Shown: positions 20,043 through 33,546 of the stretch, one piece after another
Position numbering within the stretch: position 1 is the first letter of the stretch
How the letters are laid out: each line of letters opens with the position of its first letter
Assembly (NCBI RefSeq): GCF_015689175.1
Contig: NZ_CP065047.1
Coordinates: 434,001 to 498,000 of the forward strand
Length of the DNA: 64,000 nt
Direction of reading: 5' to 3'
Origin: Mycobacterium kubicae
GTDB lineage: Bacteria; Actinomycetota; Actinomycetes; Mycobacteriales; Mycobacteriaceae
Made by a program: the position numbers and the translations under genes
The notes under the pieces: generated by a model
The model's database searches: none
What the model was told of the DNA's origin: nothing
The model's input: only the letters and a program-made list of their open reading frames with translations

Positions 20043-21361
20043 CCTGTTGCCTCACGTCAAGATGCGCGCGAGGGGGGATTCGTTGCCTCACGTAAACGTG
20101 CGCGCTTATTGATTGGGGGTTGGGCGCCGGGCGCAGCTTTGCTGGTGGTCAGGGTGAACAGCTGGGCGGTCAGGGCTTGTACCTGGCGTTGGGTGGCGGC
20201 GGGATTGATCAGCGAGTAGGTCCGGGTCAGCGCCACGATGCGTTGCACGGTCGTGGTGGGGTGATCGATTGTTCGGTGAAAAGGGGTGGTGGCTCTGTCG
20301 TGTTTTTTGGATACCTTGGCGCCTTTGCGGACTTTGGAGATCAGTTTCTGCTGTGGGTAGAAGTAGTTGGTCAGCCTGGAGTGCAACTGCCAGATCTCGT
20401 TGAGTAGCAACAGTTCTGCTGCGGTGTCGTAGCGGTGGTAGCCGACCACGGTGCGCACCACCGCCCAGTTCTTTTGCTCGACGTGACAGCCGTCGTTTTT
20501 GTTGCCCGGCCGCGCCCGGGTGAAGGTGATCTGGCGGCCTTGGCACCATCCCAGCAGGTGGTCGTTGATGAATTCTGATCCGTTGTCGGAGTCCACCCCC
20601 AGGATCGGGAACGGCATTTTGTGGGTGATGTCATTGAGCGCTGCCAGTACGCATTTGGCGGTCTTGTCGGGCACTGAGCGGTTCTCGGTCCAGCCTGTGG
20701 CGATGTCGGTGACGGTCAAGGTGAATGCATGGCCTCCGCCGCGGTTGCCGCCGTCGTGCCAGACCAGGTCGATTTCGACGAACCCGGGTCGAGCGTCGTC
20801 CCAGTCGGCCCAGGTGCGCACTGGGATCTGGCTTTTGAGCAGCGATCCCGGCTTGGTACCACAGCGTCCCCGCTGGTATTTGGCTCGCTGATCGGCCAGA
20901 CGGCGATCGATGGTGGCCGCCGACATCGACACCAGCAGTTCGGCGGTGCCCTCGTCGAGGGTCAGCTCGCCGAAATGGCGCAGCACTGCCACCAGTTCAC
21001 TGAGCATCGGCGCGAGCCGTTTGCCGGCCGGCATCCCCAGCACCCTCCAACAGACCGTCAAAGCCGCGATGACCTCAGGCCCGTACTTCACCGGACGCGG
21101 ACTGCGCGGGGCAACGATCCTGGGCCGCAGGGCGGCTGCGAGCGCCTTGCGCGCGTGGTTTCGGTGCCACCCCGTATTGGCGGACAACTCGTCAAGAATC
21201 CGACTCTTAGCGCCCTTGCTCGCCAGCTGGTAGCGGGTCGCGGCCGCTTCGGTGATTGCTCTGCGCTGCGCCAACGTCAACCTCATCCACTGGGCCTACG
21301 CGCGCATTTTCCATGAGGCAACGAACCACCCTTTCGCGCGCATTTCTGACGAGTCAACGCG
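20043..21361 (-). mobile_element. Insertion sequence with DDE transposase and double subterminal repeats
   Basis: About 1.32 kb around one transposase gene. Both ends carry two related copies of a GTTGCCTCA...TGCGCGC unit spaced exactly 36 bp: GTTG at 20046 and 20082 on the left, and CAAC at 21355 and 21319 on the right. Together they form imperfect inverted ends of about 60 bp. A GTCGG pentamer flanks both sides (20038-20042 and 21362-21366) and may be a target duplication, but 5 bp is weak evidence and the exact ends may shift by a few bases. Family not assigned. Confidence 0.75.
20057..21286 (-). CDS. IS transposase, rve-type DDE integrase core
   Basis: 409 residues. N-terminal helix-turn-helix region ([37 protein letters not shown]), then the catalytic core. 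Asp lies in [13 protein letters not shown], Asp in [18 protein letters not shown] and Glu in [15 protein letters not shown], giving an intact D-D-E set. It appears full-length and is possibly active. Sequence style recalls actinobacterial integrase-core transposases with a long C-terminal basic tail, but I cannot name the IS family. The coding region runs almost from end to end of the element, its start and stop lying inside the repeated ends. Confidence 0.88.
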
Positions 21362-21401
21362 GTCGGAGGGTGCAACTAGAATCGAAAGTATATTCGATGA
21401 A

Positions 21402-22520
21402 GTGGCTACGGTAGGTCCGGAGACATTGGTGGCTGCGGTCGCATCGACATATCGGCAGGAATCGGTGTTGGTGGCACAGCGGATGGCGGCAATAGCAGGT
21501 TTGTTGCGGTATCGCTCGGACGCCACCGAGCGAGCCGCCGAGCGCGGCGACTATGCCAGGATCGGAGCCTTCGAGCACACCGCGGCCGAGGTGGCCGCGG
21601 TGATGAACCTGTCGCCGGTGGCGGCAAGCTATGTGGTGAGCGATGCCGAGGCGCTCGACACCCGGTTGCCCAAGATCCGCGCGTTACTGGCGCAAGGCCG
21701 TACCGACTGGCGCACAGTGCGATTGATCATCAGCAGGACCGATCTGCTGACCGATGAGAAGGTCATGGCGGCGGTCGATGAGTCGCTCGTTGCCCAGATC
21801 GCCTCCTGGCGCGGGTGGTCCAAGCGGCGCATCCTCAATGCGGTCGATGCCACGGTGCGCATGCTGGATCCAGATGCCGCCCAGGAACGCCGGGAGACTG
21901 CAGATCAAGACCGCCATATCGGGATCACCGCCGCGGATGACGGGATGGCCGAAGTGTATGGGCGGGTAGCCGCGGCGGCGGCCACGGCGTTTGATCGGCG
22001 ATTGTCGCAATTAGCCACCCTGGTGTGTGGTGCCGATCCCCGCACACTGGATCAGCGTCGCGCGGATGCGTTGGCAGCCTTGGCGGAAGGTCGCGCTTTG
22101 CCCTGTGCGTGTGGTCAATCGAATTGCCCGGCAAAGGCGAGCGACACGGCCGAGGCGGCCGGAGTACGGGTAGTGATCAATGTGGTGGCCACCGATGAGA
22201 CCCTGCTTGGCGACAGCGAACGACCCGGGTACCTCGAGGGTTACGGAATTATCGATGCAGAACAAGTACGTCAGTTGGCGGCCACGGCATCGCTGCATGC
22301 GGTGGATTCGTTGACCAGTGCGGCGGAAGCGTTGCGGTACCAGCCCTCGGCCGCCTTGGAACGCGCAGTCCGGTGCCGGGACCTGACGTGCCGGTTCCCC
22401 GGATGTGGCCGCCCTGCTGTCATCTGCGACCTCGACCATACGGTGCCGTTCAACCACCAAGACCCCACCGCGGGAGGGCGCACGGTATTCGAGAATCTGA
22501 AATGCCTGTGCCGGTTGCAT
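21402..22520 (+). pseudogene. 13E12-repeat family protein (DUF222 + HNH), 5' part, split by prophage
   Basis: REP13E12-type protein: [20 protein letters not shown] near the start, a helical DUF222 body, and the beginning of an HNH module ([20 protein letters not shown], then LKCLCRLHH). It is interrupted at the final HH codons by the phage attL; the rest lies at 33090-33546. The frame stays open into the prophage to 22706, giving an artificial C-terminus. The start is uncertain: no ATG fits the homologous N-terminus, GTG 21402 is the first good candidate, and the reading frame also continues back through the IS end. The nuclease module is lost unless the prophage excises. Confidence 0.8.
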
Positions 22521-22545
22521 CACCTGATATCCGTAGTACATTTTA
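22511..22545 (+). other. attL of the phiRv1-like element
   Basis: Host 13E12 sequence ends at the shared core CATCA (22518-22522). Phage sequence follows with the arm CGTAGTACATTT (22532-22543), an 11/12 inverted match to the arm at attR. The integrase start codon is 27 nt beyond the core. Core limits are inferred from the only short identity that restores the host frame. Confidence 0.7.
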
Positions 22546-22548
22546 AGG

Positions 22549-23979
22549 ATGCGCCAAGCTACCGCCATCTACACCCGTATCAGCCTGGACCGTTCCGGCC
22601 AACGCCACGGCGTGACCAGGCAACTCGAGGACTGCACCGCACTGGCCGAACGCCTCGGCTGGAACGTGGTGGCCCGCTTCGACGACAACGACCTATCCGC
22701 CTATAACGGCAAGACGCGGCCGCAGTTCGAGGCGCTGCTGGATGCGATGAAGCGCGGCGAGATCGACTCGCTGATCTGTTGGCACCCCGACCGCCTCTAC
22801 CGGCGTCTTGCTGACCTGGTGCGGTTGCTGGACGTGGCCGCCGGGGTGGAGATTCGCACCGTCAACGGCGGCGACATGGACCTCTCCAACGCCACCGGGC
22901 GCATGCTGGCCACCATCATCGGCAGCGTGTCGACGCAGGAGTCCGAGCACAAGGGTGAGCGGCAGCGGGCCGCGGCCAAGCAGTTAGCCGCGAGCGGCGC
23001 ACCGAAGTGGCGGCGCGCCTTCGGCTACATCGGTGACACCTACCAACCCGATCCTGCGGTGGCGCCGCTGGTGCGTGAGGCGTACGCGGCGGTCCTTGCC
23101 GGGGCCTCTCTCGGCGACGTGTGCCGGATGTGGAACGACGCGGGCGCGCTGACGCAGCGCTGGGTGAAGCCCAAGAACGCCGACGGCCAAACGATCCGCG
23201 ACGCGCAGCCCGTAGTGGAACGGCGCAAGTGGACGCAGCCGCAGGTCTCGAACTTTCTGCGCAAGCCCCGCAATGCCGGTTTGCGGGACCACAACGGTGT
23301 CGTCGTCGGCAAAGGCACGTGGCCAGCGCTGGTGGACGAGGACACGTGGCGCGCCGTCCAAGGCGTGCTGGAAGCGCCCGGACGGGCACCGGGCCGCAAG
23401 ACGGTGCGCCGCCACCTGTTAACCGGCGTGCTGCAATGCGGCAAGGACGGTTGCGGCGGCTACCTGTCCGGGATGCAGACCCTCGACAAACGAATCACCT
23501 ACGCGTGCAAGACGTGCCGCGGGGTGTCGGTGCGCGCTGAGCACGTTGAGCCGCTGGTCTACGGCGTCGTAGCGGGGCGGTTGGCGCAGCCGGACGCGGT
23601 GGACCTGTTGAAAGCCGAACTGCACGACACCACCGAAGCGGAGCGGCTACGCGGTGAGCGGGCGACGCTGCTGGCGCGCCTGGACGACATCGCCATCGAA
23701 CGGGCCGACGGCCTGATCGACGGCAAGGGTTACCGCGCCATGACCGATCGCATTAACGAGCAGTTGGCCGGCATCGAGCGCCGCCAGCACGATCAGGAAC
23801 GGTTGCGCGTATTCGACGGATTGCCGCTCGGGACACCAGAAGTCGCCGAGCGGGTCCGGGCGCTGTCCGCGGACCGCCTGCGCGCGGTCATCGACGTGTT
23901 GGTGGAGTTCGAAGTTGCCCCAGTTGGCAAGGGCGGCAAGGTGTTCAATCCCGAGAGAGTGAAGGTGAACTGGAAATGA
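22549..23979 (+). CDS. Large serine recombinase (phage integrase)
   Basis: 476 residues. Resolvase-type N-terminal domain with catalytic Ser12 in [12 protein letters not shown], then [20 protein letters not shown] and the arginine-rich active-site segments. A recombinase domain covers residues ~170-290 ([29 protein letters not shown]). A zinc ribbon CGKDGC...CKTC follows at ~300-330, then a coiled-coil insertion and C-terminal tail. It catalyses directional attP x attB recombination; its length is close to phiRv1 Int (469 aa). ATG 22549 lies 27 nt from the attL core, typical of these elements. Its stop overlaps the next start (ATGA). Confidence 0.95.
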
Positions 23980-24332
23980 GCGACGATGACGTACACCTTA
24001 TCGAGGTTCATTGCGACGGCGCGCCGGGTGCGCCCCACACACGGCTGTACGTGGCGCGGATGGTGCGAACACTTCGCATGGACGACGCGCGCGGGTGGGC
24101 TGTTGCACGCGACGGCGGTCGTGGACACGGAGCCGACCAGAGCGGCCAAGGACGTGACCGGATTGATTTGAGGTGCGGTAATGGCGGTTGCCGCCTCAGC
24201 GCCCAGGTCGTCTTCGACGAAACCCGCGAGACCCGCGCGCACGCCCGCATGGTGGAGGCGCTCGATGCCTGGGCGGCTACAGGTCAGACGGAACTTCCTC
24301 TACATGCGATAGCTGGTATCGTTTCCCGTTAG
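23976..24332 (+). CDS. Phage hypothetical protein, coupled to the integrase
   Basis: 118 residues starting with ATGA overlap at the integrase stop, so translation is coupled. Features: acidic N-terminus, IDLRCGNGGCRLSAQV with a Cys-x4-Cys pair, and a helical C-terminus (RAHARMVEALDAWAATGQTE). The two cysteines could be half of a metal site. It might act with the integrase, but no excisionase-type HTH is visible. Function unknown. Confidence 0.6.
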   Translation: MSDDDVHLIEVHCDGAPGAPHTRLYVARMVRTLRMDDARGWAVARDGGRGHGADQSGQGRDRIDLRCGNGGCRLSAQVVFDETRETRAHARMVEALDAWAATGQTELPLHAIAGIVSR

Positions 24333-24395
24333 CGCGGGTAACGCCGCCGGTCGGAAGCAATTGCCGATCAGCCGCTGACGCGTTGAAATCCCTCT

Positions 24396-24441
24396 CATCG
24401 GAGGGGCCACTTCTTGTGCCCCTTGGGAGTTCCCTCCGATG
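24396..24441 (+). promoter_or_regulatory. Inverted repeat enclosing the start codon of the next gene
   Basis: CATCGGAGGG (24396-24405) and CCCTCCGATG (24432-24441) are perfect 10-bp inverted repeats, and the last three bases are the ATG of the gene at 24439. A second stem GGGGCCAC/GTGCCCC (24403-24410 with 24416-24422) shares bases with the first. In RNA the long stem would hide the start codon, so translation could be conditional. Inferred from sequence only. Confidence 0.45.
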
Positions 24442-24684
24442 CCTGTGCCCACTTCGCCGCAATCGCGGTCCGCTCGCGCCAGGTTGGCGCAGTCTGCCCA
24501 CGCCACTGGGCGAGATTCGGCCGAGACGACTGAGGCGCGGCGCGACTTCGCCGCAGCTCGCCTCGATGACTACATACGCGACACCCTTGCGAAGGCGCCG
24601 CCGCTCACAGATGCCCAGCGGACGAAACTTGCCCAGTTGCTGAAGCCAGCCCGCACCGCCGCGTTGGGTGGTGCGCAGGCGTGA
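24439..24684 (+). CDS. Small phage protein
   Basis: 81 residues: an Ala/Arg-rich N-terminus then RLDDYIRDTLAKAPPLTDAQ and RTKLAQLLKPAR. The second half matches a short motif I recall in many actinobacterial integrated elements near the integrase, where it is of unknown role. Strong terminator-like hairpin begins 11 nt after the stop. The start codon lies in an inverted repeat, so expression may be regulated. Confidence 0.65.
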   Translation: MPVPTSPQSRSARARLAQSAHATGRDSAETTEARRDFAAARLDDYIRDTLAKAPPLTDAQRTKLAQLLKPARTAALGGAQA

Positions 24685-24694
24685 ATGAACGAAA

Positions 24695-24726
24695 AAGCCT
24701 CCCAGAACGGGCATTCGGGGAGGCTT
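24695..24726 (+). terminator. Hairpin terminator after the small phage gene
   Basis: AAGCCTCCC (24695-24703) and GGGAGGCTT (24718-24726) form a 9-bp stem with a 14-nt loop. An A-run precedes it and no clear T-run follows, common for actinobacterial terminators. It separates the integrase unit from the primase unit. Confidence 0.7.
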
Positions 24727-24805
24727 CATCACAACAACTGCACACTGAGCGTACCGCCGGGACGCTGTTAGGCCGCAGCGCCGGAACAGCGCAGCGAGGT
24801 CGGCA

Positions 24806-26881
24806 ATGAGTGCGGCGCTGATAGCGATTGCAGAGGCGTTGCGCAGCAACGGAAAACACGTCGTTGAGCGCGGTGATCAGCTTGCCGCGCAGTGCCCTGC
24901 TCACGACGACAGCAACCCGTCGCTGTCGATCAAGCAACGCCGTGACGGCACAGGTGTGGTGGTGTACTGCCACGCCGGTTGCGACCACCGGGACATTTTG
25001 GGCGCCATCGGGCTGACGGACCGCGACCTTTTCGACGAGCCGCGTATCCGTGCGGCGTACAACCCAAGCCGCACCTACACCTACACCGATGGACGGAAGG
25101 TGCACCGAAAGCCCGGCAAGAAATTCGCGCAATCCGGTAACACCAGCGGCCGCGCGTTATACGGCGTGGACAACATCGGTGCGCACGGCACCGTGTACGC
25201 CGTCGAGGGCGAGAAGGACGTCGAGGCCGCAAGGGCGGTAGGTGCAGTCGCGGTGTGCGGCGCAATGGGCGCCGGTAAAGCCCACAAGTTCGACTGGACG
25301 CCACTGCGCGACCATCCGGTCGTGATCGTCGCCGACCGCGACGAGCCCGGCCGCCGGCATGCCTACCAGGTAGCCGAGCAACTTCAAGGCATCGCCGCAT
25401 CGGTGCGCATCGTGGAAGCCAGGGCTGGCAAGGATTTGGCGGACCACATCGCCGCCGGGTTGGGATTAGACGACCTCGTGGCAGTCGAAGAGGCCCGCAA
25501 TGGTTTGCCGGTCGGCGACAGCGGGCAAGCGCACGGCATCCGGGACGCCGAGCAGGCCAAACATTCCGGGCAGGTGCGCATGGCGTACCTGTTGGCCGCG
25601 GCCTACGAGAACAAGCTGCTACACGTCCACGGCATCGGCTGGCATCAGTGGGACGGGCGACGGTGGGCAGCCGACGACACCGGGGCCGCCCACCGCGCCG
25701 TTCTCGATGTGCTGCGGCGAGCCTTGGCAGAGTCGCTGGGCGATAGGGAGTTGCGGGCGGACGTGCGCAAGTGCGAATCCGCTGCCGGGCTTGCAGGTGT
25801 GCTGGAGATCGCCGCTGCGCTAACGGTTTTCGCGGCCACCGTGCGCGACTTGGACGCCGACCCATATCTGCTGAACACCGCCAACGGCACACTTGATCTA
25901 CGCACGCAGGAGCTTCGGCCGCACAACCCGGCCGACCGCATCACAAAGGTGTGCCGCGGCGCGTACCACCCCGAGGCGGCACAACCAGCAGTGTGGGAGG
26001 CGTTCCTGGCGCGGGTGCTACCCGATGGGGCTGTACGCGGATTCGTGCAGCGCCTGGCCGGGCTTGCGCTGCTGGGCGAGGTGCGTGAACACATCCTGCC
26101 CATCTTCACCGGCACCGGCCGCAACGGGAAAGGCACCCTGTACAAGGCGCTGTTGTACGCGCTGGACGATTACGGTCACGTGGCTGAACCGGATCTGTTC
26201 ATGCACCGCGAAGGGGCGCATCCCACCGGCCAGATGGACCTTTTGGGGCGGCGCCTGATAGTGGTGTCGGAGTCTGACCGCGACCGCCGACTGGCCGAGG
26301 CCACCATGAAGCGGCTGACCGGGGGCGACCCCGTCACCGCCCGCCACATGCGCCGCAACTTCGTCACCTTTACCCCGTCGCACCTGCCGATCCTGGTCAC
26401 CAACCACCTGCCGAAGGTGTCCGGTGACGACCCGGCCGTCTGGGCGCGTATCCGCGTGGTGCCGTTCGCCGTCTGCATCCCCAGCCACGACCAGGACACC
26501 GAACTGGACACAAAGCTGCACTGCGAAGCTGACGGCATTCTGTCCTGGGCTGTCGCGGGCCTTGCCGACTACCTTGCCTGGGGCCTTGACGAACCCGAAC
26601 AGGTGCGCACGGCAACCGACGACTACCAGTCCGAGAGCGATGCGGCGCGCCGCTTCATAGCGGAAGAGTGCGTGACGACGAGTCCGGCGCTCAAGGCAAC
26701 CACCGCGCAGCTTCACGAGGCCTTCGAGCGGTGGCGGGTGCGTGATGGCGCCGAGGCGATGTCGCAGCGGGCGTTCGGTTCAGCGCTAGACCGCCTTGGC
26801 TACCAGGCCGGGCGTCCTACCAACGGCAAACGATGGCGCACCGGAATTGCGGTGAAGGTGAGCGACGATGAAGGCGAATAG
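24806..26881 (+). CDS. Phage primase-helicase, D5/P4 type
   Basis: 691 residues. N-terminal zinc-binding region (QCPAHDDSNPSLSIK, VVVYCHAGCDHRDIL), Toprim domain (YAVEGEKDVEAARAVGAVAV, VVIVADRDEPGRRHAYQVA) and a D5_N/helicase part. The latter has Walker A FTGTGRNGKGTLYKAL near residue 435, RRLIVVSESDRDRR, and LPILVTNHLPKVSGDDPAVW with the SF3 arginine in WARIRVVPF. It would prime and unwind replication from an element origin, plausibly the inverted repeat directly downstream. Similar in role to Rv1582c of phiRv1. ATG at 24806 selected; no Shine-Dalgarno is obvious beyond GAGGTCGGCA. Confidence 0.93.
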   Translation: MSAALIAIAEALRSNGKHVVERGDQLAAQCPAHDDSNPSLSIKQRRDGTGVVVYCHAGCDHRDILGAIGLTDRDLFDEPRIRAAYNPSRTYTYTDGRKVHRKPGKKFAQSGNTSGRALYGVDNIGAHGTVYAVEGEKDVEAARAVGAVAVCGAMGAGKAHKFDWTPLRDHPVVIVADRDEPGRRHAYQVAEQLQGIAASVRIVEARAGKDLADHIAAGLGLDDLVAVEEARNGLPVGDSGQAHGIRDAEQAKHSGQVRMAYLLAAAYENKLLHVHGIGWHQWDGRRWAADDTGAAHRAVLDVLRRALAESLGDRELRADVRKCESAAGLAGVLEIAAALTVFAATVRDLDADPYLLNTANGTLDLRTQELRPHNPADRITKVCRGAYHPEAAQPAVWEAFLARVLPDGAVRGFVQRLAGLALLGEVREHILPIFTGTGRNGKGTLYKALLYALDDYGHVAEPDLFMHREGAHPTGQMDLLGRRLIVVSESDRDRRLAEATMKRLTGGDPVTARHMRRNFVTFTPSHLPILVTNHLPKVSGDDPAVWARIRVVPFAVCIPSHDQDTELDTKLHCEADGILSWAVAGLADYLAWGLDEPEQVRTATDDYQSESDAARRFIAEECVTTSPALKATTAQLHEAFERWRVRDGAEAMSQRAFGSALDRLGYQAGRPTNGKRWRTGIAVKVSDDEGE

Positions 26882-26959
26882 CACGCAAAGTACGCAATTG
26901 GGGGTTCACCAGTACGCGCGCGCCTATGTCGTCATACAGAAATTGCGTGCTTTGCGTAC
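26881..26959. repeat. Long inverted repeat after the primase gene (candidate replication origin)
   Basis: GCACGCAAAGTACGCAATT (26881-26899) and AATTGCGTGCTTTGCGTAC (26941-26959) are inverted copies with 17 of 19 matches. They are separated by 41 bp containing an alternating GCGCGCGC tract. Each arm itself contains two ACGCA-like units, as in iterons. Location directly behind a primase-helicase suggests an origin; a terminator is the alternative. Confidence 0.5.
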
Positions 26960-27010
26960 TGCCGCAGGTCAAAGGCCCGAGGGCGGCCAGCGCAGCGGCG
27001 AGCGTGTGCG

Positions 27011-27343
27011 GTGAGCATGCCCGGTGGCCGCTGGGTCAGCACGCAGGACTGGGCTCGCATCGTTGCCGTTGCGGGCTTGGCCGCGGGAGCGGAGCCCCGC
27101 GAGGTGGCCGCCGCCCTGGAGGGCCGTACTGGCCGTGGTGCGGCGCAGGCGGCGCGGGCGGCGCGCGCGGCAGCCATTCGTGCTTGCCGCGGCTGCGACC
27201 CGTCAGGGTGGCGTCTGGGCGCGGATGGAGTGCCGTTGGACCCGGCCGTGCGCTGCGGCCACAACGCCGCCGACCCGCCCGTCGCGCGCGATCCCAGCGA
27301 GCCGCTACACGAGCACCCCAATGCCGGTGCGGCATGCGGTTGA
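27011..27343 (+). CDS. Phage hypothetical protein
   Basis: 110 residues, Ala/Arg-rich, opening with WVSTQDWARIVAVAGLAAGA and containing IRACRGCDPSGWRLGADGVP, a Cys-x2-Cys pair followed by a second Cys/His segment (VRCGHNAADPP). A small zinc-finger-like protein is possible. GTG start at 27011; an ATG two codons later also fits. Its stop lies 10 nt inside the next gene, suggesting coupling. No family recognised. Confidence 0.55.
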   Translation: MSMPGGRWVSTQDWARIVAVAGLAAGAEPREVAAALEGRTGRGAAQAARAARAAAIRACRGCDPSGWRLGADGVPLDPAVRCGHNAADPPVARDPSEPLHEHPNAGAACG

Positions 27344-27534
27344 CCGTCCACGGCGGCGACTACGCGGTTGCGGTGGTGCCCAAGCTCCGCACACGCCGCG
27401 TGAGCATCCGCGCGGGGCCGGTGATCCTGACGGTGTCACCGGCCGAAGCGTTCGCATTGGCCGATGCACTAGTCGAGGCAGCCGAAACACTCCGCAGCAC
27501 AACCGTTCACGGCACAACACAGGAGGGAAAATGA
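27334..27534 (+). CDS. Small phage protein
   Basis: 66 residues from the ATG at 27334: MRLTVHGGDYAVAVVPKLRT, then IRAGPVILTVSPAEAFALAD and ALVEAAETLRS. A beta-rich start and one helix; resembles short regulatory or DNA-binding accessory proteins of actinophages only in size. Overlaps the previous gene by 10 nt and the next start by 4 nt (ATGA), so it belongs to the same operon. The longer open frame starting at 26926 is not supported, since it covers the inverted repeat. Confidence 0.55.
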   Translation: MRLTVHGGDYAVAVVPKLRTRRVSIRAGPVILTVSPAEAFALADALVEAAETLRSTTVHGTTQEGK

Positions 27535-28313
27535 GCGAGGTAAGTAGCGGCGAACCGGCCGACGATGACGAGGCTGTGGTGGCGCGGGTGGCTGCCCGGA
27601 TGCGGAACCGGCCGCGGAAGCCCGTCAACCCGGTCACCGACGCCGACCCCGCCGATGTGCGGCGGCAGGTGCGCGCCGATGCCACGGCTGCCATGGCCCT
27701 GTGGTTTGGGCTGGCTGGCCTTGATGTGGGCTTCGCGGCAGCTGTGGACCATGCCAGCACGCCGTGCGAGTGCTGCCCGGACGATGTTGGCCTGGCGTCA
27801 ATGCCGTACGAAGTGTTCCGCGCCGCGGATGTGCGTTTGGTCGGTGACGCCCGCCGGGTGCTGGACGATGCCGTCATTCGCGGCGCCGCTGTGGTGCTGC
27901 CGACGTGCTGTGCCCGTGACCGCCCGCAGGTCGAGTTGCTAGTGTGGCGCATCATCAACCGGCTGCGCGACCTGCTGACCGACCACCAGCGCGAAGACCT
28001 GCGGGTGCGGTGCACAGGCGGCGATGACGACTTTGAGTTACGTTGTCTGCGTGCGGGTTACGTGCTAGCAATTGCACAGATCACCGACGCTGACGACATG
28101 GCATCGGCTGCCCATGACCTGACCGTGCGCGAGTGCCGCGAACAGCCGTTCGGCGGTCTGACGCCCCGCGGCGTCTGGTGCGTGGCCGCTCCTGCGGTAG
28201 CGCGCATGGCCTCCGACCTTGCACCCGATGCCCTAGTGGCGTTGTTGCAGGCGGAGTTGGTGCGCCTCGATTCGCTGATGGTTTACCCCGATGCCGATGT
28301 GGGTGCGCGGTGA
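27531..28313 (+). CDS. Phage hypothetical protein, cysteine-containing
   Basis: 260 residues, mostly helical. Distinctive cysteine clusters: STPCECCPDDVGLASMPYEV at about residue 70 and LPTCCARDRPQVELLVWRI at about residue 125, possibly forming a metal site. C-terminal segments AQITDADDMASAAHDLTVRE and ALVALLQAELVRLDSLM are helical. No relation to a known family recognised. GGAGGG lies just upstream of the ATG. Start and end both overlap neighbours by 4 nt, showing tight coupling with the small protein before it and the HTH protein after it. Confidence 0.6.
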   Translation: MSEVSSGEPADDDEAVVARVAARMRNRPRKPVNPVTDADPADVRRQVRADATAAMALWFGLAGLDVGFAAAVDHASTPCECCPDDVGLASMPYEVFRAADVRLVGDARRVLDDAVIRGAAVVLPTCCARDRPQVELLVWRIINRLRDLLTDHQREDLRVRCTGGDDDFELRCLRAGYVLAIAQITDADDMASAAHDLTVRECREQPFGGLTPRGVWCVAAPAVARMASDLAPDALVALLQAELVRLDSLMVYPDADVGAR

Positions 28314-28768
28314 TTCAGCGGCTGGCCGGTGTGTACCTCGATGCCTATGACGGCGCGTTTGTTGTGGAAGCGCTGGACCGCTTGGCGCAGTTGACGGCTG
28401 GGCCGACCCCGGCGCGCCTGGAGTCGGTGACGGCGAAGCTGCGCCGCGCTGTGCGCCACTCGGCCGAACCGCCAGCACAACCACCAGTGCCCGATTCGGT
28501 TGCTGAGCAGCAGCATTCGGCGCAACCGCCAGAAACAACCGCCAGTGTGCGTGCACTGCAACGTGATTCGGTGCACGCTGGTCCGCATGTCACCGGCACC
28601 ATGGGCACCGGCCAGGCCGCACGCCTCCTCGGCATCTCAGCCAACGGGGTCCGCGACCTTGCCCGCCGCGGCCGCCTACCGGCCAGCCGCACCGGCACCC
28701 GCTGGCAGTTCGACGCCGCAGCCGTCACCGCTTTTAGCCAGCGGAGGGCCGCGGCGCAGGGCAGGTGA
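28310..28768 (+). CDS. Excisionase-like HTH protein
   Basis: 152 residues from GTG 28310 (GTGA overlap with the preceding stop). N-terminal helical part (LAGVYLDAYDGAFVVEALDR), a Pro/Gln-rich linker, then a MerR/excisionase-type winged HTH at residues ~100-145: MGTGQAARLLGISANGVRDL, ARRGRLPASRTGTRWQFD, AAAVTAF. The HTH_17 fold is used by recombination directionality factors and repressors. phiRv1 needs such a factor (Rv1584c) for excision; the assignment here is by fold and context. The extra N-terminal half is unusual for a plain excisionase. Confidence 0.7.
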   Translation: MIQRLAGVYLDAYDGAFVVEALDRLAQLTAGPTPARLESVTAKLRRAVRHSAEPPAQPPVPDSVAEQQHSAQPPETTASVRALQRDSVHAGPHVTGTMGTGQAARLLGISANGVRDLARRGRLPASRTGTRWQFDAAAVTAFSQRRAAAQGR

Positions 28769-29346
28769 GCGTTGTGCCTAACCTGCGCACCATCCGCGGC
28801 GTGGAGTTGATGCGGGTCGGAACGTGGCAGACCGCAAGCCACCCCGATGGCTGGACGGTGACGGCCGACGATCTGGCCGCCGTCGTCGCCGCGCACGCCG
28901 CGGGTGTGCTGCCGCGGGCTCGGCTCAAAATCGGGCACAGCGACCCCCGTTTCGACGGCGGTCCCGCACTTGGCCGCGTCGATAACCTGCGCCTGGCCGA
29001 TGCCGGTGCGACGTTGGTCGGCGACTTTGTGGACGTGCCAGCCGCCATCGCCGCGCTGCTGCCGCACAGCTATCCCTCGCGGTCGGTGGAGGCGTTGGTG
29101 GATTACACCGCACCCGATGGCACTGTGTGGCCGCTGGTGCTGACCGCGGTGGCGCTACTCGGTGCCACCGCGCCGGGTATCGAGACGCTGGCCGACATCA
29201 CCGACTTGTACGGCGTCGCAGCAGCATCAGCGCGCCGCCTAGTGCTGGCCGCACCACCGCGCGGCGAGGCGACCAGCCAGCGTGCCCGCGCTGTCGCGGT
29301 GGCACGTGCCCGACGCACCCGCAGCACCCGAACCCTGGCCGTCTAA
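28765..29346 (+). CDS. Phage head maturation protease (Mu gpI-like)
   Basis: 193 residues starting with a 4-nt overlap with the HTH gene. The stretch LPRARLKIGHSDPRFDGGPA, GRVDNLRLADAGATLVGDFV, DVPAAIAALLPHSYPSRSVE and LTAVALLGATAPGIETLADI follows the Mu gpI-type prohead protease pattern, in which a His and the PxRSxE segment are conserved. Expected to process scaffold or capsid during assembly. It precedes decoration and capsid genes, the usual head-gene order. Arg-rich C-terminal tail. Confidence 0.75.
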   Translation: MSVVPNLRTIRGVELMRVGTWQTASHPDGWTVTADDLAAVVAAHAAGVLPRARLKIGHSDPRFDGGPALGRVDNLRLADAGATLVGDFVDVPAAIAALLPHSYPSRSVEALVDYTAPDGTVWPLVLTAVALLGATAPGIETLADITDLYGVAAASARRLVLAAPPRGEATSQRARAVAVARARRTRSTRTLAV

Positions 29347-29363
29347 CCCGGAAGGACACCCGC

Positions 29364-29744
29364 ATGTCGACTACCCGCATCAACCCCTACTCGTATGCCC
29401 CCGGCGCGAACATCACCGGCGAAGCCACCGCCACCATCAGCGCCCGCAAGTTCGTCAAGATCAGCGGCAACCGCACCGCCGCAGGCAACCTCGCGGTAGC
29501 GCCAGCCGCAGCAGGGGACCGCGCGTTCGGAGTGGCCGCCCACGACGCCGCGACCGGTCAGTTGGTGCACGTGGCCCGCGGCGGCGTCGTCAAAGTCCTT
29601 GCCTCCGGGGCCATCGCCGCCGGTGCCGCCGTCCAGGTCGGCGCAGGGGGTGCAGCCTCAACCGCCGCGGCGGGCGTCGTGGTCGGGTTCGCCGTCACCG
29701 GGGCCGCCGACGGCGCCGTCGCCGAAGTGGCGTTCTACGCCTAA
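29364..29744 (+). CDS. Capsid decoration/stabilising protein (DUF2190-like)
   Basis: 126 residues of small, Ala/Gly-rich beta-structure: ISARKFVKISGNRTAAGNLA, AFGVAAHDAATGQLVHVARG, GAAVQVGAGGAASTAAAGVV. This is the pattern of DUF2190/head-decoration proteins placed between protease and major capsid genes. ATG at 29364 with GGAAGGA 7 nt upstream. A frame open further upstream overlaps the protease and is ignored. Confidence 0.75.
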   Translation: MSTTRINPYSYAPGANITGEATATISARKFVKISGNRTAAGNLAVAPAAAGDRAFGVAAHDAATGQLVHVARGGVVKVLASGAIAAGAAVQVGAGGAASTAAAGVVVGFAVTGAADGAVAEVAFYA

Positions 29745-29764
29745 CCGAAAGGAACCGAACCGCC

Positions 29765-30649
29765 ATGACTTCACCGCTCATCCCCACCCTGTCCGGGCAG
29801 CAGTTGACCGTCGATGCCGCGCTCAAGCATCCGTCAATCATCCAGACCCGCATCGCCAAGCTGGCCGACAAGCAACTGCTGCTCGGCAAGTTCTTCCGCC
29901 AATTGGGAACGCAGGTGCAGGGCGGCGCGCTGCTCTACAGCACCATCACCGCCGCCGACTACTACGCCGCAGGTGGCATGGAGAAGCGCACACCGGGCGC
30001 GGAGTACGCCGTCATCGAAGGCGTGGCACCCGAGCCGCGGCTAGCACCCGTGGAGGACTGGGGCGCCAAGGCCATCCTGCCTGCCGAGGCGATCTTGCGG
30101 AATGACGCAAACCTGTTGGACAACACTGTAACTCAGCTCTCGAATACCCTTGCTCGTAAGTTGGATACCCGTGCGGTGGCCGCCCTCCAGGCCGCCAGCA
30201 TCGGCAGCCTGGCACCCGCGGCCGGATGGGATGACCTGGTCATGGTGGGGCCGCTGGATGCCATCACCCCATCGGCAGACCGGCCAAGTGCCCACTGGGC
30301 CGAGGCGCAAGAGATGGCCGATTTGGAAGAGCTTGGTGTGCAACACGATTTGCTCATTGTGCACCCAGAGCAGGCCAAGCAGCTACGCGTCGCCTACGCC
30401 GAGAACCTGGACGCCGCACTGGAATCCGCGGGCTTCACCAACGGCATGTTCGCCAACCCCCGCATCCCCATCGGGCAAGCTTTCGTCCTCGAACAGGGCG
30501 CAGTGGGCACGGTCGGCTTCGAACTGCCGCTCACCGTGGACATCTGGGAAGAGAAGGGCACCCGGTCGTGGGTGCTGCAGGTCTACGCCGTGCCCGCCAT
30601 GGCCGTCGACCGGCCCTACGCCGCCAAGAAAATCACCGGCCTCAGCTAG
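29765..30649 (+). CDS. Major capsid protein
   Basis: 294 residues, a common size for HK97-type capsids. Features: LTVDAALKHPSIIQTRIAKL at the N-arm, VIEGVAPEPRLAPVEDWGAK, LLDNTVTQLSNTLARKLDTR and a C-terminal strand-rich part ending VYAVPAMAVDRPYAAKKITG. Follows the decoration gene by 20 nt with GAAAGGA upstream of the ATG at 29765. phiRv1 Rv1576c is annotated as a capsid protein in the equivalent place. Confidence 0.82.
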   Translation: MTSPLIPTLSGQQLTVDAALKHPSIIQTRIAKLADKQLLLGKFFRQLGTQVQGGALLYSTITAADYYAAGGMEKRTPGAEYAVIEGVAPEPRLAPVEDWGAKAILPAEAILRNDANLLDNTVTQLSNTLARKLDTRAVAALQAASIGSLAPAAGWDDLVMVGPLDAITPSADRPSAHWAEAQEMADLEELGVQHDLLIVHPEQAKQLRVAYAENLDAALESAGFTNGMFANPRIPIGQAFVLEQGAVGTVGFELPLTVDIWEEKGTRSWVLQVYAVPAMAVDRPYAAKKITGLS

Positions 30650-30670
30650 CCCAGAAGGGAAACGCACACC

Positions 30671-31144
30671 ATGGCACTCACGCTTGACGACACCCAGACC
30701 GCGGCGCTACTCGACGCACTGGGCCTACCAGCCGACACCGACGACGCCAACCTGGTGGTGGACACCGCCAAGGACCTCGCCACCCAGGTCCAGGGCCTCG
30801 ACACCGCCAAGGCCAGCGCCGTCGTCGCCGCAGCCGCACGGCACGGCATGGAGGTCATCGACAAGCCCACCGCCGACGCACTGCGCCGCGACGCCCAAGA
30901 AGGCAGACGGGTCATCGCCGCGGCAGCCAAGGCCAAAGTCGAGGCCGCCGTTGACCACGCCATCGACACCGGCCGCATCATGGCCAGCAGCAAGAAACAC
31001 TGGATCACCCTGTGCGAAAACGACGAAACGATGCTGCCGCACCTGGCCTCCATCGCACCCGGCACCGCCGTCCCACTCAGCGAAGTCGGGCACAGCGCCG
31101 ACGCAACGCCCGACCCCAACCCATCCGGCCAGTGGTTCTACTGA
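30671..31144 (+). CDS. Phage scaffold-like protein
   Basis: 157 residues, acidic and helical: LDDTQTAALLDALGLPADTD, ATQVQGLDTAKASAVVAAAA, AVDHAIDTGRIMASSKKHWI, then TLCENDETMLPHLASIAPGT. The last part resembles the scaffold portion fused to Mu gpI-type proteases (IDTGRI...W...), here as a separate gene behind the capsid. Scaffold function is an inference. GAAGGGAA lies 7 nt upstream of the ATG. A strong hairpin 57 nt downstream ends the head operon. Confidence 0.6.
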   Translation: MALTLDDTQTAALLDALGLPADTDDANLVVDTAKDLATQVQGLDTAKASAVVAAAARHGMEVIDKPTADALRRDAQEGRRVIAAAAKAKVEAAVDHAIDTGRIMASSKKHWITLCENDETMLPHLASIAPGTAVPLSEVGHSADATPDPNPSGQWFY

Positions 31145-31200
31145 CCACCTAGACCGCGCTGCCGGGTGGGTGCAACAGCCCGCACACACCCCGGCGCGGC

Positions 31201-31253
31201 GTGGGCAGGCGCCCCGGTTCCGACTCGTCCTTGGCTGCCGGGGCGCCGCCCAC
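31201..31253 (+). terminator. Strong hairpin at the end of the head-gene operon
   Basis: GTGGGC-A-GGCGCCCCGG (31201-31217) pairs with CCGGGGCGCC-GCCCAC (31238-31253): a 16-bp GC stem with one bulged A and a 20-nt loop. No T-run follows. It lies between the head operon and the nuclease gene. Confidence 0.7.
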
Positions 31254-31528
31254 GACCCCCGAGACGGCGGCCCAGGCCCGCGGTGGGCGCCCAGACAGCC
31301 AGCAGCCAGCGGGCCGCGGCCAGCCCTCGGCTCGGCGGCACACCGATGCCACCCACCCCCGAAAATCTTCGGCTCCCCCCTCGGGGTGGCTCCCACGGGG
31401 TAGCCATGGATTTTTTGCGCGGCTCGAAAAAGATCGGGCTCGAAGCGCAACGAGTGCCGTCTGATGGCGGATGTAGCGTTTGGGCTGTGATGTGACGAAT
31501 CCCCGATTCGGGGGCGAAGTGGAGCACC
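31254..31528. promoter_or_regulatory. Leader of the nuclease gene with palindrome
   Basis: Non-coding stretch between the head operon and the nuclease. It holds an AT-rich imperfect hairpin near 31411-31437 (GATTTTTT with AAAAAGATC) and a 13-bp palindrome CCCCGATTCGGGG at 31501-31513, ending 15 nt before the GTG start. The palindrome could bind a regulator. No gene is supported in this stretch. Confidence 0.4.
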
Positions 31529-33029
31529 GTGACTGTCCCGAGAAACCGATTTGACGAGACCTGGCATCGGCTACGCGATTGGACAGGTGGCCAATCCAAG
31601 TCCGAGATGCTGGCGTGGCAGGTGATTGGGGCTGAGGGCTACACCCGTATTGACCCGGCACATACACACGGAGGCCCTGACGGTGGTGGGGACGCCATGT
31701 GTGAGCGGGATGGCGAGACGTGGGTGATGGCGGCCTATTTCCCGTTAGGTCAGAAGACGCCGGCCACGATCAAGAAGAAGCTGTTGCAAGACATGAAGGG
31801 CGCGAAAGCCAAGGGCGGGGTGGGCATCGCGTTCGTCACCAATCAGGAGATCACCCTGGCGGAGCGCGAGCAATGGGAGCAATTGGACCCTGACCTCAAG
31901 GTCCACCTGTTCCATCTGTTGAAGGTCACCCAAATCCTCAACGAACCTCAGTACGCCCGGACCCGCGAGGAGTTTCTCGATATCGTCGCCGGCCCCCCGC
32001 CGATGCTAATCAAGGCGTCCATACTTGGGCCTGCTCATGCATTCACTGATGACAGGGTTGTACTCGAAACCTTCGTGAAGATGTATGAGCAGCGGATTCG
32101 AAAACGGTCCGATAAGGGGCATGCGCGCGTTCGCGCCGAACGCGAAGCGAAGGAACGCGCCGAACGCGAAAGACGAGAGCGCGCGGCCGCGGCCGCGGCG
32201 CGCGAGGCGGCGGAGGAGGCGCAGCAGGAAAGGCTGCGGGAACTCGGGCCAAAGAGGCCGTGGGATCTAGCTGGTACCCCCATCCCACGGATGACCGACA
32301 TGCTCGGTCAACGTCCGTATTACAACCTTGGTCAGGTTCAAGGCCGTGACTCTCTGATGGACGACGCCAAACGGGAGGAACTGCTGTACAAGACGCTGGG
32401 GATCAATCCGCCGACGCCGCCACAGCCGCTGGACGAGGCGCAGATCACGGAAAGGGTAGCCGCATACCGGGCAGGCCTAGAAGCGCGCTGGCCCGCGTGC
32501 CGGGACTACCTCGCTGGTGTCGCGTGGCCGGGCCTGCGGTTTCGGATCAAGAACGAGGCAAGAAGTTTCCTCAACGATGTACAGGTCATCCTGACCTTCC
32601 ACGGGGCACGGGGTGTCAACTTCGAGGATCTCGAAGGCTTTCGAATTCGACAAGGTTCCGGACCCGAGTTGGCAGCGTCCGGTGGACCCGCTGTTCTATA
32701 CCGCACTGCCGGCTATGCCCCGGCTGGCCCCGCCGTCGGACTACCCAATCGAATGGCGGCACAACGACGACGGGGACCTCGAAGTGACGGTCACGTTGCC
32801 GCAGCTAAGGCCGCATCCAGAGTGGCGAAGTGACGAGTACGGAGACGACATAGTGGTTGTTGTGGACCCCGGTCTCGAGGCCGACGAGATAGCAGTCACA
32901 TACACGGCCACCGCCCATAGCTACGGCGACGTGTTTGAAGGCGAGCAAATTGCTCTGCCCGTCGAGAAGGAACCCATGCTTGACGTGCTGCGTCGGGTGA
33001 TTGCCGCGACCAGGGATGATGACTCCTGA
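31529..33029 (+). pseudogene. Mrr-like PD-(D/E)XK nuclease with coiled coil, one frameshift (phage defence cargo candidate)
   Basis: Restoring one frameshift gives about 499 residues. The N-terminal domain (SEMLAWQVIGAEGYTRI, HGGPDGGGDAMCERDGETWV, AAYFPLGQKTPATIKKKL) fits a restriction-endonuclease-like core: Glu, GPDGGxD, then an aromatic/Lys segment, as in Mrr-type enzymes. Residues ~185-235 form a charged coiled coil (RAEREAKERAERERRERAAA). The C-terminal part continues in another frame from 32641 (FEFDKVPDPSWQRPVDPLFY, then EWRHNDDGDLEVTVTLPQL) to 33029. One extra T in the TTT at 32639-32641 explains the shift. Uncorrected, the first frame ends at 32833. Placement as the last gene before attR, with its own leader, fits prophage-borne defence or exclusion genes. 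Confidence 0.7.
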
Positions 33030-33061
33030 TAGTGAGGTGGGCGGCGCCGCGTTTGTATGCG

Positions 33062-33100
33062 TGAAATGTACTTCGCGCCGCTAGTGCCATCATCGGCTCA
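33062..33100 (+). other. attR of the phiRv1-like element
   Basis: Phage arm AAATGTACTTCG (33064-33075), 12 more phage bases, then core CATCA (33088-33092) and the resumed 13E12 coding sequence (CGGCTCAAGACC). The arm is the inverted partner of the arm at 22532-22543. Confidence 0.7.
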
Positions 33101-33546
33101 AGACCTTCGGTGGCTGGCGCGACGAGCAGCTGATCGATGGCACCGTGGTGTGGACCTCTCCGACCGGGCGCACCTACCGCACCGTCCCGGCGGGCACCGA
33201 CCTCTTTCCGCAGTTGCGCTCGCCGGCTTGCGCGGCACCAGCACCGGTCACGCGCAGCCGAGCCCAACGGCGCAGCACCCGCATCGCCGCCGCGCGCAGG
33301 CATAACCGCGAGCAGCGGCCACTCAATGAGGAGCGCCGCTATCTGGAACAGGCCCGTCAAGAAGAGATCGCTGCTCGCCGATTCCGGAATCACATGCGCG
33401 ACATGCTCTTTGCCTTCAAAGGCGGCCCGAGCACCAGTCCATTCTGTACCTGGGTCAACGATCCCCGCGAACCCGAGGAACTGCCACCCGACTGGCGGCC
33501 CGCCGAACCCGCACCAGACCCCCCACCCGACGAACCTCCTTTCTAG
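33090..33546 (+). pseudogene. 13E12-repeat family protein, 3' part
   Basis: Continuation of the gene broken at 22520. Joined across the CATCA core it reads [20 protein letters not shown], restoring the HNH motif, then [20 protein letters not shown], an Arg-rich helical stretch and a Pro-rich tail ending [10 protein letters not shown]. There is no stop or frame change in the joined reading. The fragment has no start of its own; a GTG at 33145 could only make a 133-residue C-terminal piece. Confidence 0.85.

Follow-up and report, generated by a model that had tools for sequence, protein, structure and literature searches.

What kind of element splits a mycobacterial 13E12 gene within its nuclease motif, and why does it lie there? 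We analysed a 64,000-nucleotide window (C1:434001-498000) of the 6.02-Mb genome of Mycobacterium kubicae, which is assembled in three contigs, and found a 10.57-kb element (22518 to ~33092) within a gene of the 13E12 (DUF222-HNH) family, a repeated and poorly understood mycobacterial gene family. Judged from its sequence, the element is very probably a small phiRv1-like, capsid-carrying phage satellite that uses the multicopy 13E12 family as docking sites. The most striking fact, absent from the preliminary description of this locus, is that the genome contains three identical copies of it.

The break in the 13E12 gene falls at the first His codon of an HH pair in the HNH motif, whose residues at the cut site we take to be catalytic. 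The 5' part of this B-type gene (21252..22519, on the forward strand as are all features below unless noted; PF02720, E 7.9e-68) reads ...NLKCLCRL-H to 22520, and its listed open reading frame (ORF) extends to 22706, into element DNA. The 3' part (33088..33546) resumes at 33088 in the same phase, is open until a stop ending at 33546, and shows 89% protein identity to the right part of its counterpart in G010 (locus L226). When the halves were aligned separately with homologues, the left-half search returned 29 loci, 28 of which contained both halves, and in all 28 a single frame ran across the join. The offset at the join was 0 in 26 of these; in the remaining two (L241 and L249) the HH residues are altered and the gap equals the number of unaligned residues. 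At the 29th locus (L252) the 13E12 gene is interrupted by another element. The best homologue, that of G010, represents a syntenic empty site with an uninterrupted 13E12 gene, where the two parts map to the neighbouring positions 1499 and 1500 (DNA identity 83% for the left part, 85% for the right part, and 85% for the downstream CoA-transferase gene). The preliminary description had proposed that the element splits the HNH motif and that the halves continue in the same phase across a shared CATCA, and had named a gap, a frame change, or a displaced empty-site boundary in relatives as evidence to the contrary. Both proposals were borne out, and the empty site in G010 showed no gap and adjacent bases. 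The frame continuity of the homologues, the syntenic empty site, and the use of the same codon in two more paralogues together indicate that the insertion is not due to chance. The host gene is disrupted while the element is in place; because the two halves share a phase, excision would be expected to restore an unbroken reading frame.

A tRNA gene was rejected as the integration target, as no tRNA was found in the window. Separately, an rve-type transposase gene (20057-21286, reverse strand) immediately precedes the 5' half of the 13E12 gene and has no match at the L226 locus, and it may have disturbed the upstream region of the interrupted gene as well.

The integrase of the element is present three times in the genome, each copy 100% identical, with no further integrase match at E ≤ 0.001. 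The stretch identical in all three element copies spans 10,577 bp (22518..33094; no mismatch between the window and L012 or between the window and L013), and the crossovers of the three copies lie near C1:456.5, 2270.3, and 3182.2 kb. Zero differences over this length imply that the copies are recent or have been kept alike by gene conversion. The copies occupy the same codon of three different, diverged 13E12 paralogues, and at each copy the right half is most similar to the gene group to which the left half belongs. All 22 of the returned homologue loci that were tested for the two remaining target genes are contiguous. The genome has 13 DUF222 matches, comprising nine A-type (REP13E12-like) genes and four B-type genes with the motif NLKC.CR.HH..KTF. 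Three of the B-type genes are occupied by the element and one is uninterrupted (C1:1124660, CRTHHLVKTFWGW), and none of the A-type genes (L014-L022) holds it. Eight of these A-type genes look nearly alike over their last 200 residues, and the ninth (L022) has a changed frame before the HNH motif.

The gene content of the element agrees with the preliminary description of an integrated phiRv1-like element. The gene for a large serine integrase (22549..23979, 476 residues; PF00239, PF07508; phrog_95 integrase, E 1.9e-87) starts 30 bp from the crossover, at the element edge. A small protein of 81 residues (24439..24684; phrog_24177 of unknown function, E 1.9e-8) is a candidate for the recombination directionality factor, judged solely from its size and location; the directionality factor of phiRv1 is likewise small and encoded close to int (PMC5311408). 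Downstream lie a primase-helicase with D5_N and Toprim domains (24806..26881, 691 residues; PF08706, E 3e-34; phrog_6088, E 2.6e-136) and an ORF that ends in an HTH_17 domain and resembles an excisionase or regulator (28133..28768; PF12728, E 1.3e-9; weak phrog_66, phrog_1840, and phrog_57 matches). The element also encodes a head maturation protease (28765..29346; phrog_3894, E 3e-57; no Pfam match) and a major capsid protein (29768..30649, the matched part of the ORF at 29282-30649; phrog_1650, E 1.7e-51; PF25209, E 3.3e-14). The frames of the integrase, primase, protease, and capsid genes are all open. A profile search of the genome gave no match to portal PF04860 or terminase PF03354, and none of the 10 element ORFs scanned against PHROGs matched a tail or large terminase (TerL) family. 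The weak phrog_57 match of the helix-turn-helix (HTH) protein is to a small terminase (E 2.6e-6).

An alternative origin is a full prophage that had lost its terminase, portal, and tail genes and retained the capsid gene as a relic. We examined 20 elements of the integrase clade described below in 18 genomes, chosen from those with clade elements; L078 and L063 were counted among the 20, L078 by similarity. Element ends were sought within 20-kb regions, which puts longer elements out of reach, and arm-to-arm lengths were ~6-16 kb where both arms were found. The capsid profile built from the window element was narrow in reach, finding capsids only in its own element, L064, and L095 (L078, outside the set searched, was matched by tblastn), so Pfam capsid profiles were used instead. 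A capsid gene (PF05065 or PF25209) lay between the ends in 14 of the 20 elements (those in G000, G261, G073, G274, G130, G042, G029, G084, G035, G154, G072, G183, G077, and G057), and capsid-family matches in PHROGs or Pfam were seen in L055, L062, L072, and L076, of which L062 also encodes a tape-measure-like protein. Terminase genes were found in two elements and a portal gene in one. The 16-kb element L059 (G042:C16), inserted in reverse at the HH codon, contains capsid, portal, and large terminase genes, and the element in G097:C3 has TerL and no capsid match. The packaging set of L059 is more complete than those of the other elements. Thus, although the lack of PF04860 and PF03354 matches in the genome fits a decayed prophage, a capsid gene recurs in related elements of small size, the four frames of the window element are open, and its three identical copies point to recent activity. 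We regard decay from a full prophage as improbable.

The crossover was located by comparing both arms of each insertion. At attL, the crossover dinucleotide CA (22518..22519) is part of the first His codon of HH, within a shared run CATCA (22518-22522); at attR, it lies at 33088..33089 within the same shared run (33088-33092). The comparison covered 25 insertions of 23 distinct elements, with the three copies of the window element counted, and was restricted to elements whose alignments reach the His residue on both arms (L063, L071, L108, L110, and L141, lacking one arm, were dropped). CA, which opens the first His codon, is common to both arms in all 25 insertions and no other position is, and since the set was picked by its reach to the His residue, the informative part is that sharing does not extend to the flanking bases. 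In the left arm, the third position of the His codon varies (CAT, CAC, CAA, and CAG), which fits DNA beyond CA being element-derived. These comparisons narrow the CATCA run and suggest that the crossover most likely takes place at CA. On visual inspection, a motif close to RAGTAC(A/G)(T/C)T is present on both sides in most element-side arms, arranged as an inverted repeat as in phage attachment sites (attP), and the L063/L065 group has a different element-side motif.

The shared codon also bears on whether the element is transposon-like, its serine recombinase moving it within the genome at relaxed sites of which 13E12 would merely be a frequent one. Three identical copies in one genome are what such an element would produce, and multi-targeting serine recombinases exist (PMC10083194). 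However, each of the three copies occupies the same codon within a single gene subfamily rather than one of many unrelated sites, 25 related insertions share that codon, the genome holds no other integrase match, and capsid and protease genes are present, which makes this explanation quite improbable. A mis-assembly that placed a single real copy three times is highly improbable: only one assembly was available and long identical repeats mislead assemblers, but each copy is flanked on both sides by matching halves of its own diverged paralogue, which spurious placement would not create at three exact codons, and a protein identical to the 434-residue cargo protein of the element (P0121) is listed elsewhere on a contig of exactly the repeat size (10,577 bases), a hint of copies collapsed in another assembly. 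Other contigs carry frame-shifted versions of the integrase and of the cargo protein (P0036, P0130); these contigs and that of P0121 probably belong to other assemblies of this species.

We next consider how widely the association between this type of integrase and 13E12 genes is shared. Integrase relatives at E ≤ 1e-20 were found in 97 of 297 genus genomes, drawn from a larger group and including the genome studied here. Labels based on their surroundings were assigned to 215 loci, drawn from the genus search, from viral contigs, and from named GTDB genomes; these include the three own copies and some duplicate records, and 41 lie at a contig edge. The HH label allowed a tolerance of -6 to +20 residues; the labels of L053, L062, L107, and L282 were corrected by hand, and L119 (25% match) was omitted. 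For the tree, 147 unique judged integrases of at least 430 residues were reduced to 92 rows, namely the rows adjoining 13E12, the genus-search rows without 13E12, and nine outside rows; a further 55 rows from outside, which lacked 13E12, were dropped, and the integrases of L078, L091, and L092 (< 430 residues) were left out.

The quick tree of these 92 integrases contained a clade of 32 rows (Shimodaira-Hasegawa-like approximate likelihood ratio test, 99), all 32 of which adjoin 13E12. Within it, 23 rows are labelled as HH-codon insertions in which int adjoins the left half, six carry the HH-codon label in reverse, two are at a C-terminal A-type site (M. asiaticum and M. bohemicum), and one has a weak A-type match. 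With nine rows added, L177 and contig-edge rows, the clade grew to 39 rows, five of them unjudged, and 33 of the 34 judged rows adjoin 13E12; 30 rows have HH-codon labels, in both orientations, and 22 of these are confirmed by both arms. The statement that every clade integrase sits in 13E12, which held for the first tree, was given up with this extension. All labels on the tree required 17 changes compared with a mean of 38.2 after shuffling, and none of 200 shuffles gave a number as low. Reverse orientation requires at least five changes on the tree. The M. asiaticum and M. bohemicum insertions, which end near the A-type C-terminus and are represented by left halves only, with right ends not found, are nested inside the clade. 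Use of 13E12 is also seen in ten rows that fall outside the clade, with sites near A-type residues 249, 305, 370, and 395, with L278 at the HH codon again and L282 20 codons further on, implying that the family was chosen as a target more than once; 50 of the 92 rows do not adjoin 13E12. Members also occur in a Frankiales and an Actinomycetes metagenome bin (L113, L098). The 80 loci returned included none from M. tuberculosis. The tree demonstrates persistent 13E12 tropism with target switching in one integrase clade, which lies nearly always beside 13E12 genes; other clades use the family separately.

Two side observations concern the same gene family. In a Skermania sp., outside Mycobacterium, a related integrase (L116) lies after a stretch resembling 13E12 (47% over 36 residues, E 4e-7). 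In addition, four 13E12 left halves (G022:C1:3028938, G195:C1:4321813, G195:C1:4217314, and G235:C6:644682) stop three to five codons before HH and are immediately followed by distant serine integrases (31-38% identity), i.e., by other integrases using the region.

Several points weigh against the satellite interpretation and the 13E12 association. The three-copy structure is known from one assembly. Portal and terminase were each searched with one Pfam profile, so diverged ones could escape, and six of the 20 related elements (in G016 and G104, two in G097, and two in G108) had no capsid match. The choice of tree rows is biased toward the association, in that contig-edge rows were retained when they had a 13E12 match and dropped when they had none. 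One row of the clade, L177, comes from a viral contig that is perhaps not integrated DNA and has no 13E12 in the 1.5 kb upstream, and five rows remain unjudged, two of which (L174 and L178) show a tail resembling 13E12 immediately ahead of int (E 0.006 and 8e-4, respectively). Another clade row, L084, depends on a weak 13E12 match (34%, E 1.5e-4). The shared CA is partly imposed by the picking of arms that reach the His residue. On the target side, the site has moderate dyad symmetry, which in itself favours the interpretation (average 8.5/20 versus 5.6, standard deviation 2.1, at all positions; 28 of 29 genes), but positions that score as high make up a median of 13% of the gene concerned. 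The 42-nt window around the bacterial attachment site (attB) had a conservation of 0.817 versus an average of 0.728, and the idea that conservation along the gene peaks at the site was not upheld, as 22 of 481 windows are equally conserved.

For a phage satellite docking in 13E12 genes, the following course of events can be proposed. Serine integrases exchange strands between attP and attB, and excision proceeds with a directionality factor. The satellite would have been inserted by its own large serine integrase, which presumably recognises the DNA encoding CR-x-HH-(R/L)LK, where the HNH motif of B-type 13E12 genes ends. Strand exchange between attP and attB at the CA of the first His codon would leave the gene in two parts. 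Because the target is a multigene family, several docking sites are available per genome, and three of the four B-type genes are filled here. Excision would need a directionality factor, for which the 81-residue protein at 24439 and the HTH protein at 28133 are candidates. The ring form might then be replicated with the primase and packaged with the tail and terminase of a helper phage. The extra copies most plausibly arose by recent reintegration of the ring into vacant 13E12 sites, or by repeated infection or several satellites entering such sites at once.

The closest known system is phiRv1 of M. tuberculosis, which is small and has capsid and primase genes. Its presumed site is near the C-terminus of a 13E12 gene of the other subfamily (A-type, ..PPPHLDHGQPRTNT..), whereas the window element lies at the HH codon of a B-type gene. 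The M. asiaticum and M. bohemicum insertions end at that presumed phiRv1 position. The preliminary description had claimed the same target choice as phiRv1, which holds for the gene family, the sites within it probably being different. phiRv1, which has the serine recombinase Rv1586c, lies in a REP13E12 repeat (PMC9317374), much as the window element with its serine integrase lies in a 13E12-family gene, and REP13E12 is a known target of phiRv1 and of phage integration (PMC9317374, PMC2323391). The window element differs again in its three identical copies, phiRv1 being compared here by description rather than by sequence.

Among satellites, Abad et al. 2023 counted phiRv1 and phiRv2 among candidate phage-inducible chromosomal islands (PICIs) (PMC10654092). 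Like capsid-carrying, PICI-like satellites, the window element is small and combines an integrase with a major capsid gene, and no complete packaging and tail set was found in it. The candidate Mycobacterium PICIs likewise combine an integrase with a major capsid gene in a single region, and in some the integrase is of the serine type, but the main text does not name 13E12 and the sections consulted describe no gene-family tropism (PMC10654092). Helper-embedded PICIs share with our clade a satellite integrase clade with repeated tropism for a gene class and new sites evolving; however, their targets are prophage late genes, while here serine integrases target a bacterial multigene family (PMC10111431). 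Diverse large serine recombinases can also converge on one gene cluster, whereas here a single codon motif in a multicopy family offers several sites per genome (PMC10083194). In the open literature searched, including passages from some of the REP13E12 papers, no report of 13E12 tropism in this integrase clade was found. As far as searched, therefore, three things are new: the insertion site at the HH codon with CA as its core; a tropism that spans the clade and is convergent, with reversals of orientation and changes of target; and the presence of three identical copies in one genome. The use of REP13E12 by phiRv1 was already known.

The preliminary description had also suggested long-lived coevolution between the element lineage and 13E12 genes. 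The association itself is old, because a clade of diverged integrases shares the 13E12 target, but the evidence does not extend to reciprocal change. We can only tentatively speculate, and think it rather doubtful, that 13E12 genes and mycobacterial satellites form a long-lived docking system, in which catalytic codons unable to drift freely would serve as a lasting attachment-site array, like the homing sites of inteins and introns; site-specific serine integrases would thereby gain transposon-like copy growth, and docking would disarm an HNH nuclease that may act against mobile DNA. If 13E12 genes do act as permanent docking sites for a satellite lineage found throughout the genus, the number of their copies, their gene conversion, and the dispersal of phiRv1-like elements could be tested as a single question. 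The tuberculosis repeats of this family are treated in PMC13061034. The three identical copies illustrate that an element with a site-specific integrase reaches several copies when its target is a gene family. Furthermore, diverged integrases with sites in one protein motif offer a natural experiment on the evolution of attachment-site specificity and orientation.

The remaining genes lie toward the right end of the element. The protein encoded at 30671..31144 has a weak match to Mu-like prophage I protein (PF10123, 25.4 bits against a cut-off of 25.2). A PADLOC search of seven proteins found no defence genes and one CARF-like match (E 0.041). The cargo protein (31529..32833, 434 residues) has no Pfam match of its own and retrieved 117 proteins at E ≤ 1e-5, own copies included. 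One of its relatives (P0206) matches the Mrr_cat restriction endonuclease family (PF04471, E 1.4e-5), and the cargo protein is possibly a nuclease or defence gene product carried by the satellite.

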